From Bermanella sp. WJH001 (GTDB taxonomy: Bacteria; Pseudomonadota; Gammaproteobacteria; Pseudomonadales; Oceanobacteraceae), in contig NZ_JASJOO010000003.1 in the NCBI RefSeq assembly GCF_030070105.1, positions 1,101,155 to 1,165,154 on the forward strand: a stretch of DNA of 64,000 nucleotides. Direction: 5' to 3'. Both the position numbers and the translations under genes were made by a program. Numbering within the stretch: the first letter of the stretch is position 1; each line of letters opens with the position of its first letter. Positions 20,994 through 29,626 of the stretch are shown here, in pieces. The notes under the pieces were generated by a model. That model searched no databases. It saw nothing but the letters and a program-made list of their open reading frames with translations, and was not told the DNA's origin.

Positions 20994-21503
20994 TTACTTA
21001 TCGTAGGCATCTACTTTTTCTGAGGGGTTGCTTTGGCGATCAAGGGTGCCGATGTCCAGAACAGGAGAGGCATCAATATGCTGTGCATCCATCATTTGAG
21101 CCACGCGCTGTAATGATGAAATGATCATGGTTTGCTCCCATTCCTGTAGATCCCCAAATTGACGGGTAAAGTGATCTTGCAAAGGCATTGGGGCATCTTT
21201 TAATACCTCAATACCGGCGTCTGTTAAATAAGTATGTACTTTTCGCTTATCGGTTGTTGAGCGCTCACGGTAGACCAGATTACGTTTTTCAAGGCGGTCT
21301 AATATGGTGGTCACTGTCGCCTGGCTTAAGCTAATGTCATTGGCCAGCTCGCCAATGGTGACATGGCCCTTATCACGAACAGCTTGCAGCAATAAAATTT
21401 GCGGAGCGGTCAAACCGGTGGTTTTTGCAAGGTGCTTAGAGTGTAAATCAGTTGCGCGAATCACTCGGCGTAAGGCAACCAAAACTTCATCTATCTGGCT
21501 CAA
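20994..21503 (-). CDS. EctR-type MarR family regulator, second copy
   Basis: A 169-residue MarR-type winged-helix regulator, closely similar over nearly its whole length to the regulator encoded just upstream (21586-22242): both share the run VLVALRRVIRATDLHSKHLA, then TGLTAPQ, and the recognition region SLSQATVTTILDRLEKR. It starts with TTG; an in-frame TAG five codons earlier rules out a longer N-terminus, and AGGA lies seven bases upstream. The 82-base gap to the upstream paralogue has no obvious terminator, so both may share a transcript. As a duplicate of the probable ectoine repressor it may form heterodimers or sense another signal; that is inference. Confidence 0.88.
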   Translation of the reverse strand: MSQIDEVLVALRRVIRATDLHSKHLAKTTGLTAPQILLLQAVRDKGHVTIGELANDISLSQATVTTILDRLEKRNLVYRERSTTDKRKVHTYLTDAGIEVLKDAPMPLQDHFTRQFGDLQEWEQTMIISSLQRVAQMMDAQHIDASPVLDIGTLDRQSNPSEKVDAYDK

Positions 21504-22242: not shown

Positions 22243-22349
22243 TCCTTAGCCTCCCTTATAAGAGTCTGCGTTGATACTAGTTAGTGTGCATCAATAATGG
22301 TTAGTCATGGAATAATTTCGCCATATTTCCCATATCAATTAATTATTAA

Positions 22350-22367
22350 TATTTAGTGTACTATATT
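22350..22367. promoter_or_regulatory. EctR operator, strong match
   Basis: TATTTAGT-GT-ACTATATT: two eight-base half-sites with a GT spacer. It differs at only the last base from the pseudopalindrome I recall for EctR of Methylomicrobium alcaliphilum (TATTTAGT-GT-ACTATATA). A further half-site, TATAGTACTAA, adjoins at 22368-22378 and pairs with it, extending the symmetric region to about 29 bases. Confidence 0.8.
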
Positions 22368-22431
22368 TATAGTACTAAAGAAAATACCGATAAAAACCCC
22401 AGTTAATACCATTAATTTGTAATATTTTGTG

Positions 22432-22449
22432 TATTTATTGCACTAAATG
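22432..22449. promoter_or_regulatory. Second, weaker EctR-like operator
   Basis: Read on the minus strand: CATTTAGT-GC-AATAAATA, matching the EctR site at 14 of 18 positions. It lies about 84 bases upstream of the ectA start codon and 82 bases from the strong site, so two dimers could act together or one could block the ectA promoter. Confidence 0.45.
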
Positions 22450-22532
22450 GCTTTATTTTTGTGTTTGGGGTTTAAAAATTCTTTAGAGTAGTAAATAATA
22501 GAGTTCTTAAGGTAATACAGGAACAAAATTTC

Positions 22533-23036
22533 ATGTCACTAGCGATCGAATTACAGGTCCCGACAGCTCAAGATGGTATGTCGGTTTATGAGTTGGTAAA
22601 AAACTGCCCGCCTCTGGATACCAATTCAGCTTATTGTAATCTCTTGCAGTGCTCTCACTTTGCGGACACTTCTGTTGCAGCCGTTATGTACGGGGATGAT
22701 GGTGAAGGTAAGTTAGTGGGGTTTATTTCTGGGTATATATTGCCAGGTAAGCCAGATACCTTATTTGTTTGGCAGGTAGCCGTCTCTGACCAAGCTCGTG
22801 GTCAAGGATTGGCCTCGCGTATGATTCAACATATTTTACAGCGCAAGAATTGTGCGCAAGTAAAATTTATCGAAACCACCATTACCGAATCTAATGGTGC
22901 GTCATGGGCGCTGTTTGAAAGTGCCGCTCAAAAACTCAATGCACCATTGACTCGCTCAGTGATGTTTGAAAAGCAAATGCACTTTAATGGCGAGCACGAC
23001 AGCGAAATGCTGGTGCGTATTGGTCCATTTGGTTAA
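22533..23036 (+). CDS. ectA: L-2,4-diaminobutyrate N-gamma-acetyltransferase
   Basis: Second step of ectoine synthesis: acetyl-CoA-dependent acetylation of L-2,4-diaminobutyrate. The 167-residue GNAT fold shows the acetyl-CoA loop QARGQGLASRM and the EctA-typical stretches VYELVKNCPPLDTNSAYCNLLQ (read in two parts) and FIETTITESNGASWALFE. Length is normal for EctA. AGGAAC lies about 11 bases upstream of the ATG. It is the first gene of ectABC-ask, behind a 290-base leader containing two EctR-like operators. ectD (ectoine hydroxylase) is absent from the window, so the product here is ectoine. Confidence 0.96.
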   Translation: MSLAIELQVPTAQDGMSVYELVKNCPPLDTNSAYCNLLQCSHFADTSVAAVMYGDDGEGKLVGFISGYILPGKPDTLFVWQVAVSDQARGQGLASRMIQHILQRKNCAQVKFIETTITESNGASWALFESAAQKLNAPLTRSVMFEKQMHFNGEHDSEMLVRIGPFG

Positions 23037-23086: not shown

Positions 23087-24403
<1,317 letters not shown>

Positions 24404-24483: not shown

Positions 24484-24888
24484 ATGATTGTAAGAACACT
24501 ACAAGAAGCAGAACAAACAAATCGTAAAGTGGTTGATCCAAATAATAATTGGGATAGTACTCGTCTGTTATTAAAAGATGACAACATGGGTTTCTCGTTT
24601 CATATCACCACCATTTATGCGGGTGCTGATTTTCAGATGCATTATCAAAATCACCTAGAATCTGTATTTTGCATGTCCGGTGAAGGTGAGGTTGAAACGT
24701 TAGCCGATGGTAAGGTTTATCCAATTAAAGCGGGCACCATTTATATTCTGGATAAAAATGATAAACACATATTACGTGCCACTAAAGAAATGAAAATGGC
24801 CTGTGTATTTAATCCGCCTGTGATTGGTAACGAAGTGCACAACAAGGATGGTGCCTATGAGTTACAGGCTGATGTGATTACCGACTGA
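24484..24888 (+). CDS. ectC: Ectoine synthase
   Basis: Last step of ectoine synthesis: cyclisation of N-gamma-acetyl-diaminobutyrate with loss of water. A 134-residue cupin-fold, iron-dependent enzyme. Family stretches: [16 protein letters not shown] at the N-terminus, then [20 protein letters not shown] and [19 protein letters not shown], with the metal-binding Glu and His in HLES/YCISG-like and the late KHILRA His. The length is normal. It starts 80 bases after ectB, beyond a terminator-like hairpin; a TATAAT sequence at 24455-24460 has no convincing -35 partner. Confidence 0.97.
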
Positions 24889-24942: not shown

Positions 24943-26388
24943 ATGTCATTAGCAAATCATAGTGTAGAAAAAATTGGCGGTACATCAATGAGTGATTATG
25001 TCTCAGTTAGAGACAATATCATTCTTCAGCCGGCGCAAAAGGGTAACCTTTATCAACGGGTTTTTGTGGTCAGTGCTTACGGTGGTATAACGGATAAGTT
25101 ACTTGAGCATAAAAAAAATGGGCAGCCAGGTGTGTATGCTTTATTTGCTAATGCGGTTAATGATGAAAGTTGGCTGAGCGCATTATTACAGCTTAAACAA
25201 GATTTGATGGCGATTAATGCATCCTTGTTCAGTGATTTATTATTAATAAAAGCAAATGCGTTCATCGATGAACGCATTGAAAATGCACAAAAAGTATTAA
25301 CCAATTTACAACTTTTGTGCAGCCATGGTCATTTTTCTATTGAAGATCATTTAGCGCGTGTTCGAGAAATGTTAGCAAGTATCGGTGAAGCTCACAGTGC
25401 TTGGAATATGGCTCAGCTGCTTCAACGCGATGGGGTGAATGGTGTATTTGTTGACCTGACCGCTTGGCAGGGTGGGGATGATATCAGTCTTGATGAGCGC
25501 ATCTTACGGGCATTTGAATCCCTTGATCTGTCTTGTGAGCTACCCATAGTTACCGGTTACGCGTATAGCCCTGATGGTTTAATGAGTACCTTTGATCGCG
25601 GTTATTCAGAAATGACGTTTAGTCGTATCGCAGTATTGAGTGAAGCTAAAGAAGCGGTGATTCATAAAGAATTTCACTTAAGCAGTGCTGATCCAAGATT
25701 AGTGGGTGTGGATAATGCGGTTCCCATTGGGCGTACTAATTATGATGTGGCCGACCAGCTTGCAAACTTAGGAATGGAAGCGATTCATCCTAAAGCGGCA
25801 AAAGGTCTGCGCCAGAAAAACATAGCGTTGCGTATTAAAAATACATTTGAACCTGAACATAAAGGCACCTTGATCACAGGTGACTATGTAAGTGATGAGC
25901 CATGTGTTGAGATTATTGCAGGCTGTCGAGGGGTTTATGGTATTGAAGTGTTCGATCAAGATTTTGTGGGGGATATTGCCCGCATTGATCAAGATATACT
26001 TAAAATAATTCACCGCTTCAAAGCCAACATTATTTCAAAAGATATTAACGCCAATACCATCACTCATTATTTATCGACTAACCTTAAGACAGTTAAGCGT
26101 ATTCGAGCGGCCCTAGAAAAGCACTTTGATGAAGCTGAAATTAAACAGCAAAAGGTGGCCATTGTTTCTGCCATTGGCAGTGACATGCAAGTACCGGGTA
26201 TTTTGGCCCGCACAGTGAAAGCCCTTGCGGATCAAAACATCAGTGTATTGGCCATGCACCAATCCATGCGCCAAGTGGATATGCAATTTTTAGTGAATGA
26301 AAATGATTATGAACAAGCAATTAAAAGTTTGCATGGCTGCCTTGTTGAAGTACATGACCATGGAGACGCTATATGTCTAGCATCCTGA
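24943..26388 (+). CDS. ask: Ectoine-specific aspartate kinase
   Basis: Aspartokinase of the Ask_Ect class, supplying aspartyl phosphate for aspartate semialdehyde and so for ectoine. The 481-residue protein starts with the kinase segment VEKIGGTSMSD, then FVVSAYGG, and has GRTNYDVADQLAN and HPKAAKGL in the kinase core, with two ACT domains at the C-terminus (about 335-480). Such dedicated copies are known to be less feedback-inhibited than housekeeping enzymes, letting flux reach ectoine. It lies 54 bases after ectC and overlaps the following TPR gene by 16 bases. Confidence 0.93.
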   Translation: MSLANHSVEKIGGTSMSDYVSVRDNIILQPAQKGNLYQRVFVVSAYGGITDKLLEHKKNGQPGVYALFANAVNDESWLSALLQLKQDLMAINASLFSDLLLIKANAFIDERIENAQKVLTNLQLLCSHGHFSIEDHLARVREMLASIGEAHSAWNMAQLLQRDGVNGVFVDLTAWQGGDDISLDERILRAFESLDLSCELPIVTGYAYSPDGLMSTFDRGYSEMTFSRIAVLSEAKEAVIHKEFHLSSADPRLVGVDNAVPIGRTNYDVADQLANLGMEAIHPKAAKGLRQKNIALRIKNTFEPEHKGTLITGDYVSDEPCVEIIAGCRGVYGIEVFDQDFVGDIARIDQDILKIIHRFKANIISKDINANTITHYLSTNLKTVKRIRAALEKHFDEAEIKQQKVAIVSAIGSDMQVPGILARTVKALADQNISVLAMHQSMRQVDMQFLVNENDYEQAIKSLHGCLVEVHDHGDAICLAS

Positions 26389-28822: not shown

Positions 28823-29626
28823 ATGGGTAAATATCAGTATGAGCAGCTAATGTTTCCGGGCAAGTGCTTAACCCCAGATGCATTAAATTTGTTGGTGTTA
28901 GAGCTTAGAGAAGTGGCGGCAAGTTGCTTTAATAAAGTACCAAGTTATCAAGCCTTATCTGGCAAGCAATCTGAGCTTGAAAAAGCAGTGATCTGTCTCG
29001 CCCGTGATGAAAAGGGTCGTTTAATGGGGTTTTGTTCCGCGTTATTACTGCCAGTAGAAGGGCGAGGTGATGTATTACATCTAGGTCTCACGTGTGTGCA
29101 CCCGGATTCGCGCGGGCAAAATTTAACCCACCATTTAACCAGTAAATTATTATTAAATTTTATTGTTAAAAAATCTTTATTTAAAGAAACCTGGATCAGT
29201 AATTGTGCTTGCGTATTATCGAGCTTAGGCAATGTGGCCATGTACTTTGAAAATTTATATCCATCACCGTATGGTGTAAAAGCCCCAAGTGCGCGCCATC
29301 TTGATATCGCCCGAGCGATTAATGAAAACTACCGTGAATCCATTGCCATAAAAGAAAGTGCAAAATTTAATGCAGAGCGTTTTGTGTTTGAAGGCAGTGT
29401 AGGCGGAACGGTGTTTGAAAAAGATGCGGATGATGGTCGCTTTCACCATCGTGATCATGCGTTGACCGAATACTATCAAGATCTATTACGCTTTGATCGT
29501 GGTGATGAAGCATTACAAATTGGTAAAGTCAGCATTTTAACTTTTCCAAAATATTTAATGCGCAAAGCAGCTGTTAAAATGAAAGGGCTGCTGCCTAAAC
29601 CACGCAAACCCAATTACGCCAATTAA
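28823..29626 (+). CDS. GNAT-like N-acyltransferase
   Basis: A 267-residue protein with a GNAT-like core: CLARDEKGRLMGFCSALLLP and LTCVHPDSRGQNLTHHLTSKLL, the latter matching the acyl-CoA binding loop region (R/Q-x-x-G/N). It is longer than simple GNAT proteins, with a C-terminal extension of about 110 residues that ends in basic residues. GGGAGACAAG precedes the ATG. The gene is monocistronic with a 239-base upstream region carrying the direct repeats, and its 3' end lies 12 bases from that of the convergent Crp-like gene. The acceptor is unknown. Confidence 0.72.
   Translation: MGKYQYEQLMFPGKCLTPDALNLLVLELREVAASCFNKVPSYQALSGKQSELEKAVICLARDEKGRLMGFCSALLLPVEGRGDVLHLGLTCVHPDSRGQNLTHHLTSKLLLNFIVKKSLFKETWISNCACVLSSLGNVAMYFENLYPSPYGVKAPSARHLDIARAINENYRESIAIKESAKFNAERFVFEGSVGGTVFEKDADDGRFHHRDHALTEYYQDLLRFDRGDEALQIGKVSILTFPKYLMRKAAVKMKGLLPKPRKPNYAN

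Follow-up and report, generated by a model that had tools for sequence, protein, structure and literature searches.

The intergenic region upstream of the ectoine genes of Bermanella sp. WJH001 probably acts as a shared control region for the divergent ectR1-ectR2 and ectABC-ask genes, in which dimers of the MarR-type regulator EctR would sit on a set of dyads and repress the ect genes; we give this reading a probability of about 0.83. The 18-mer at positions 22350 to 22367 of the window (the whole stretch of DNA analysed, 64,000 nucleotides) is very probably a real, conserved EctR operator, and it very probably belongs to a cluster of EctR sites with fixed spacing around the promoter. This is a known kind of control system, refined here by a more elaborate, spacing-conserved operator array than the original prediction saw.

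Genes and candidate sites upstream of ectA

The plus strand of the window carries ectA, ectB, ectC and an aspartokinase gene; divergent from these, the minus strand carries a tandem pair of MarR-family genes. The region has the composition of an EctR-ectABC module: an EctR-type MarR regulator adjoins the ect genes, ectABC is followed by a downstream aspartokinase gene, and an A/T-rich 8-2-8 pseudo-palindrome lies 5′ of ectA, seen at 22350-22367 and in the footprint motif. The closest EctR relatives that we found likewise adjoin ectA; of the named relatives found, the closest is a Bermanella sp. metagenome assembly (L004), whose EctR is 76% identical. The open reading frame of ectR1 starts with TTG, and its true start is probably an internal ATG. 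A 14-bp matrix trained on 47 other regions placed four dyads with p ≤ 1e-4 between ectR1 and ectA. The features are as follows.

20994..21503, minus strand: ectR2, second MarR-family regulator, in tandem with ectR1 and 76.7% identical to it over 159 aa
21586..22242, minus strand: ectR1, MarR-family regulator, transcribed away from ectA; its best counterparts in L103 and L104 show 75.8% and 77.7% identity
22350..22367, plus strand: O1a, primary candidate operator, 18-mer TATTTAGTGTACTATATT, kept in relatives
22352-22365, plus strand: 14-bp dyad core of O1a, TTTAGTGTACTATA, matrix p 3.2e-7
22359..22364, plus strand: candidate -10 hexamer TACTAT within O1a's right arm, with 1 nt between it and O1b, suggested by a T bias at position 13
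22366..22379, plus strand: O1b, second dyad, TTTATAGTACTAAA, abutting O1a at a step of 14 bp downstream, p 3.0e-5
22432..22449 (core 22434-22447), minus strand: O2, weak site, CATTTAGTGCAATAAATA, p 6.3e-5
22464..22523, plus strand: best-conserved intergenic block in the three nearest genomes, containing O3 and the probable ectA ribosome-binding stretch
22482..22495, plus strand: O3, proximal candidate EctR site, TTTAGAGTAGTAAA, p 5.0e-7
22533..23036, plus strand: ectA, diaminobutyrate acetyltransferase, TIGR02406 at 205.1 bits against a cut-off of 120.6
23099..24403, plus strand: ectB, diaminobutyrate transaminase, TIGR02407 above cut-off
24484..24888, plus strand: ectC, ectoine synthase, PF06339 above cut-off
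24943..26388, plus strand: ask_ect, ectoine-operon aspartokinase, NF006614 (aspartate kinase) above cut-off and located 3′ of ectC

Farther downstream, searches of Pfam and NCBIfam at E 0.001 gave nothing for a 267-aa open reading frame at 28823-29626.

The 18-mer of O1a, from which the original prediction started, is present as an exact match 165 bp 5′ of ectA and is the sole match with three or fewer mismatches in the 64 kb (shuffled sequences average 0.15). An EctR1 operator was reportedly described for Methylomicrobium (Methylotuvimicrobium) alcaliphilum 20Z by Mustakhimov et al. in 2010. With the string that the original prediction gives for that operator, 22350-22367 has 17 of 18 bases alike if the string is right; the claimed one-base difference holds against this string, which appeared in no paper searched, the 2010 source paper lying outside that search. 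A minus-strand copy at 22432-22449 had been put forward as the second site. It exists, with 14 of 18 bases matching the operator string of the original prediction and 13 of 18 matching O1a, and by our own arithmetic about 0.04 matches of its quality (p 6.3e-5) would be expected in the region. As a conserved second operator we rejected it, since O2 is the weakest of the four dyads and is not kept in the two nearest relatives in a three-sequence alignment. What the choice of this copy had overlooked is O3, the second strongest dyad, which lies in the best-conserved block 37 bp 5′ of the ectA start and is identical over its 14 bases in L103 and L104. The L103 row of the three-genome alignment begins downstream of its O1, and only its proximal part is usable. 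O1a, too, is kept in close relatives.

Recurrence, spacing and promoter context of the dyads

A first set of 52 distinct ectR-ectA intergenic regions, 50 of them divergent, was taken from whole genomes among the matches listed. When these EctR-containing genomes were scanned for the 18-mer upstream of ectA, as had been proposed, it was found at four or fewer mismatches in 24 of the 52 regions; 23 of the 24 matches share one orientation, and 22 lie 80 to 206 bp from the aligned ectA start, the other two being at 307 and 327 bp. Unseeded motif discovery in 47 regions (left out were the window, L103, L104 and two codirectional regions) returned the motif TgTTTAGtGTtCTAAa with a log-likelihood of 226, while the best value from three shuffled sets, run with fewer starts each, was 53.4. 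Applied to the first set, the resulting matrix found 117 sites against 3.2 expected, with at least one site in 46 and at least two in 41 of the 52 regions, 47 of which had served for training. In the held-out set it found 84 sites in 52 regions, again against 3.2 expected, with at least one in 45 and at least two in 28. The held-out loci, part of a search that matched 197 of 341 genomes, numbered 64 (24 remaining after removal of six seen or own loci and 40 chosen for family spread), and 12 of these had ectR without ectA in the stretch, leaving 52 regions; near-identical genomes are present in both sets, and the effective number is 76.6 of 102. No site was found in six of the 52 first-set regions, whose EctRs are distant (41.9 to 60.1% identity) and two of which are codirectional, or in seven of the 52 held-out regions, including L172 and L203 (EctR identity 70 to 72%) and three codirectional ones. 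A matrix derived from 47 promoters and checked on 52 others thus defines the predicted EctR operator from the genome side, a kind of definition of which we found no example for EctR in the literature searched, the main experimental papers being outside its reach. Two sites had earlier been taken as a hint of cooperative or graded repression; because more than one site per promoter is common in both sets, multi-site repression is plausible, but the copy on which that claim relied is the weak, unconserved O2.

Counted from the strongest site in 83 regions, the commonest dyad offset was 14 bp: the weighted count reached 12.0 at +14 and 6.0 at -14, where chance would give about 0.12 per offset. 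Of 102 regions, 25, including the window, carry a tandem at this step no more than 250 bp from ectA, and in the held-out set the layout extends to several further families of the order; L143 has three dyads in a row at the 14-bp step. The adjoining half-site that the original prediction had noted at 22368-22378 does add symmetry, but it is better described as part of the full dyad O1b. Neither the 14-bp tandem nor the proximal site was described in the literature searched, which did not reach the main experimental papers, and we make no claim to a first report. In a second layout, present in 20 of the 52 first-set regions, all from other genera of the window's family, the dyads are 36 to 37 bp apart; by eye, the upstream dyad holds TTGTAA or TTGTAT, fitting a -35 element, and TATAAT- or TAAATT-like hexamers stand just before the downstream dyad. 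The final 75 bp ahead of ectA hold a site in 18 of the 25 tandem regions, in 1 of the 20 with the 36/37-bp layout and in 15 of the 57 others, where about 0.012 would be expected per region.

Among 29 tandem pairs, three of which (L116-L118) lie about 300 bp upstream and probably do not mark promoters, position 13 is T in 90% of upstream dyads and in 14% of downstream dyads. This bias suggests that a -10 element of pattern TAC[TAG]AT is built into the right arm of O1a. A simple promoter scan, in which 4 promoter-like hexamers were counted against 2.1 in shuffles, picks instead TATAGT at 22368-22373 with TTAATA at 22346; both the position-13 bias and the scan are consistent with an overlap of operator and -10. 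The scan yielded no convincing -35 for the distal O1 promoter. By eye, several relatives with the 14-bp layout have a CTGGA-like word about 17 bp 5′ of O1a, possibly a -35 or the site of another factor, which is absent in the window.

Specificity and alternative readings

The sites could in principle serve mainly the autoregulation of ectR1-ectR2, with ectA affected only through divergence. They do lie between two divergent genes, EctR controls its own gene in M. alcaliphilum according to passages of one source (PMC5924519), and among 18 EctR-type loci whose stretch lacks ectA, 3 carry a site of score 11.5 or higher within 450 bp. This reading is nonetheless improbable in view of the sites close to ectA in most tandem regions (18 of 25), the whole cheW-like gene that separates ectR from ectA in 12 genomes, and the arrangement in genome G018. 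There, ectR and ectA are about 640 kb apart on one contig, and the operator pair is found at ectA (L131); near the displaced ectR (L038), no site reaches the cut-off used there. G018 thus offers a natural test of regulation in trans. In G012, EctR is also distant from ectA on the same contig.

The cheW-like gene is an observation in its own right. Twelve distinct genomes, representing both layouts, carry this single-domain gene in the ectA-ectR interval and on the same strand as ectR (L104:843-1277, minus strand; L103, L024, L026, L046, L120 and L125-L130). PF01584 was found in all three of the proteins tested, and at L104 the frame overlaps the start of ectR1. The window has no such gene between ectR and ectA; three CheW-like matches occur elsewhere in its genome, the best at 41% identity. 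A literature search for CheW together with ectR and ectoine turned up one paper, in which they are named in separate passages.

Fifteen ectA loci without EctR in the stretch were available as controls, of which L048 (11 bp upstream only), L114 (whose stretch starts 504 bp 5′ of ectA at a contig end) and L131 were set apart. The remaining 12, whose genomes lack an EctR match at E 1e-20, gave one weak motif match against about 0.8 expected. The operator pair is present at both L131 and L114. Motif presence follows EctR presence across genomes. As properties of the predicted sites, the motif, its conservation, its spacing, its position and its link to EctR presence are seen in the sequences themselves.

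These controls bear on a second alternative, that the palindrome is nothing but an AT-rich promoter (-10 and start region), its likeness to an EctR site being promoter sequence plus chance. The right arm of O1a can indeed be read as a -10 (TACTAT), the scan places promoter-like hexamers there, though 4 against 2.1 in shuffles, and loose matches to the 18-mer are common in the organism's own genome, where three or fewer mismatches gave 3 matches against 5 and 6 in the reversed control; being no rarer than the control, such matches prove nothing alone. An AT-rich promoter by itself would not account for a motif that falls to chance level in the 12 ectA regions of EctR-less genomes, for dyads that recur at fixed 14- and 36/37-bp steps, or for the low log-likelihood of shuffled regions, about a quarter of the observed value at best, and we regard this reading as very unlikely and largely refuted by motif discovery, the matrix scan and the control regions. 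At one mismatch or fewer, the operator string of the original prediction had four matches in 369 genomes of the class and none in the reversed control; the window, G211 and G214 each have theirs in the ectR-ectA interval, and the fourth is in G373. The tandem 28-bp pattern at three or fewer mismatches had one match, at the ect promoter, in each of 3 of 10 genomes.

That the dyads are bound chiefly by some MarR-family protein other than EctR1 or EctR2 seems hardly credible: operators of MarR proteins resemble each other, and the genome has nine MarR-domain matches, eight above the curated cut-off and EctR1 and EctR2 included, but motif presence tracks EctR presence across genomes.

For a scan of the window's own genome, a sequence model was built from 61 of 72 sites, with O1a and O3 of the window excluded and the sites of near relatives kept. 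With 150 of 1103 candidates scored, O1a ranked first and O3 second, followed by one weak match (E 8.7) whose adjoining open reading frames look cobalamin-related by eye; so short a motif is not unique in a genome. A wider EctR regulon found no support beyond this single weak extra match among the 150 candidates scored, and weaker targets may exist.

Regulators, descent and proposed mechanism

A MarR domain is present in both EctR1 and EctR2, and among proteins of solved structure their best sequence matches are other members of the MarR family (MgrA, E 3.8e-10). Among the loci of the first set, the tandem ectR1-ectR2 pair occurs only here and in G002 and G008; in trees, the EctR1 copies and the EctR2 copies each group as three, the EctR1 group on a longer branch. 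The helix stretch SLSQATVT is identical in 14 EctR rows (three EctR1, three EctR2 and four for each layout); when it is extended by one residue to SLSQATVTT, the last residue differs in one row. Because of this identity, EctR1 and EctR2 would be expected to read the same dyads, and mixed EctR1-EctR2 dimers are possible. A change of layout caused by the protein was considered but found no support, as no SLSQATVT column differs between layouts; other EctR positions do differ, for example S to G at position 80.

The layouts were assigned by hand, the one 16-bp case (L046) being placed in the 14-bp group, and trees were pruned to 46 of 55 EctR rows and 43 of 52 EctA rows by dropping nine long-branch loci. 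On both pruned trees the two layouts separate by a single change, so that joint inheritance of operator layout, regulator and operon seems likely; the full EctR tree requires three and two changes for the layout groups. Horizontal transfer of the EctR-operator pair had been considered because EctR identity is high in other families. Forcing the window's family into one clade costs about 15.7 log units per tree, yet this constraint was not rejected (p-AU 0.142 for EctR and 0.063 for EctA); vertical descent therefore suffices, and we do not claim transfer. The suggestion that the pair moves and evolves as one module survives in part: the putative operator is found where its regulator is and the two vary in step, but these trees do not show that they are transferred as a unit.

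The preferred reading, of EctR as a repressor in a shared control region, can be put in steps. EctR dimers, made from ectR1, ectR2 or both, would bind dyads of the type TTTAG-n4-CTAAA. One dimer would occupy O1a, with the -10 element of a distal promoter for ectA in its right arm. A second would lie 14 bp on, at O1b, over the start-site side of that promoter; O3, 37 bp before ectA, may control a proximal promoter or early elongation. Occupancy would block RNA polymerase and keep the ect genes low when ectoine is not needed. In this scheme we infer binding, repression, the promoter positions, the signal and any cooperativity of abutting dimers. A bolder version, which we offer tentatively and with the odds somewhat against it, is that the array is a spacing-coded multi-dimer operator: abutting dimers exactly 14 bp apart, with the -10 inside the first and a third dimer on the ectA leader, would form a steep or graded switch; one branch would have re-spaced the dyads to 36-37 bp around the -10, changing promoter geometry with the core of the recognition helix unchanged; and ectR would then have been duplicated in the Bermanella-like group, where mixed EctR1-EctR2 dimers could tune the switch.

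The closest known system is that of M. alcaliphilum 20Z. Passages of the sources describe its operator as A/T-rich, with two 8-bp half-sites and a 2-bp spacer (PMC5924519), and its EctR as a repressor of a gene set with two ect promoters, the footprint overlapping the -10 of the distal one (PMC5924519; PMC3979721). As far as these passages go, the two organisms share a MarR-type EctR beside ectABC-ask and an 8-2-8 operator; on the same comparison, the region studied here differs in having four dyads, two of them abutting and one proximal, and two ectR genes. Salt induction persists without EctR in M. alcaliphilum, according to passages of two sources (PMC5924519; PMC8759281), so EctR need not be the osmotic switch; here it would be expected to determine how deep repression goes, not to act as the sole salt sensor. 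In Methylophaga thalassica and M. alcalica, EctR is described as repressing or binding the ect promoter region, the part of the operon at which it is also placed here; the passages report that autoregulation by EctR was not found in M. thalassica (PMC5924519), and those examined contain no operator sequence for EctR of either species.

In Vibrio, passages of PMC7876524 describe CosR, a MarR-type repressor of ectABC-asp that is 51% identical to EctR1, as a global regulator of several solute systems, and cosR of V. cholerae is reported to lie away from the ect genes (PMC3979721). In the genome studied here, by contrast, the two strongest matches to the own-genome model both fall in the ect region, with 150 of 1103 candidates scored. 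Four Aliivibrio species have an additional MarR-type gene, ectR, clustered with the ect genes (PMC7876524), which, as described in the passages, provides a precedent for two regulators.

Work on EctR extends to no more than a few methylotrophs, and the signal that releases it from DNA is given as unknown, according to passages of PMC5924519. The genomes assembled here supply natural experiments, with the 14-bp layout set against the 36/37-bp layout, one regulator against two, and ectA genomes that lack an EctR match. Comparing these could show how ectoine genes are held down, which bears on salt tolerance and on industrial ectoine production.
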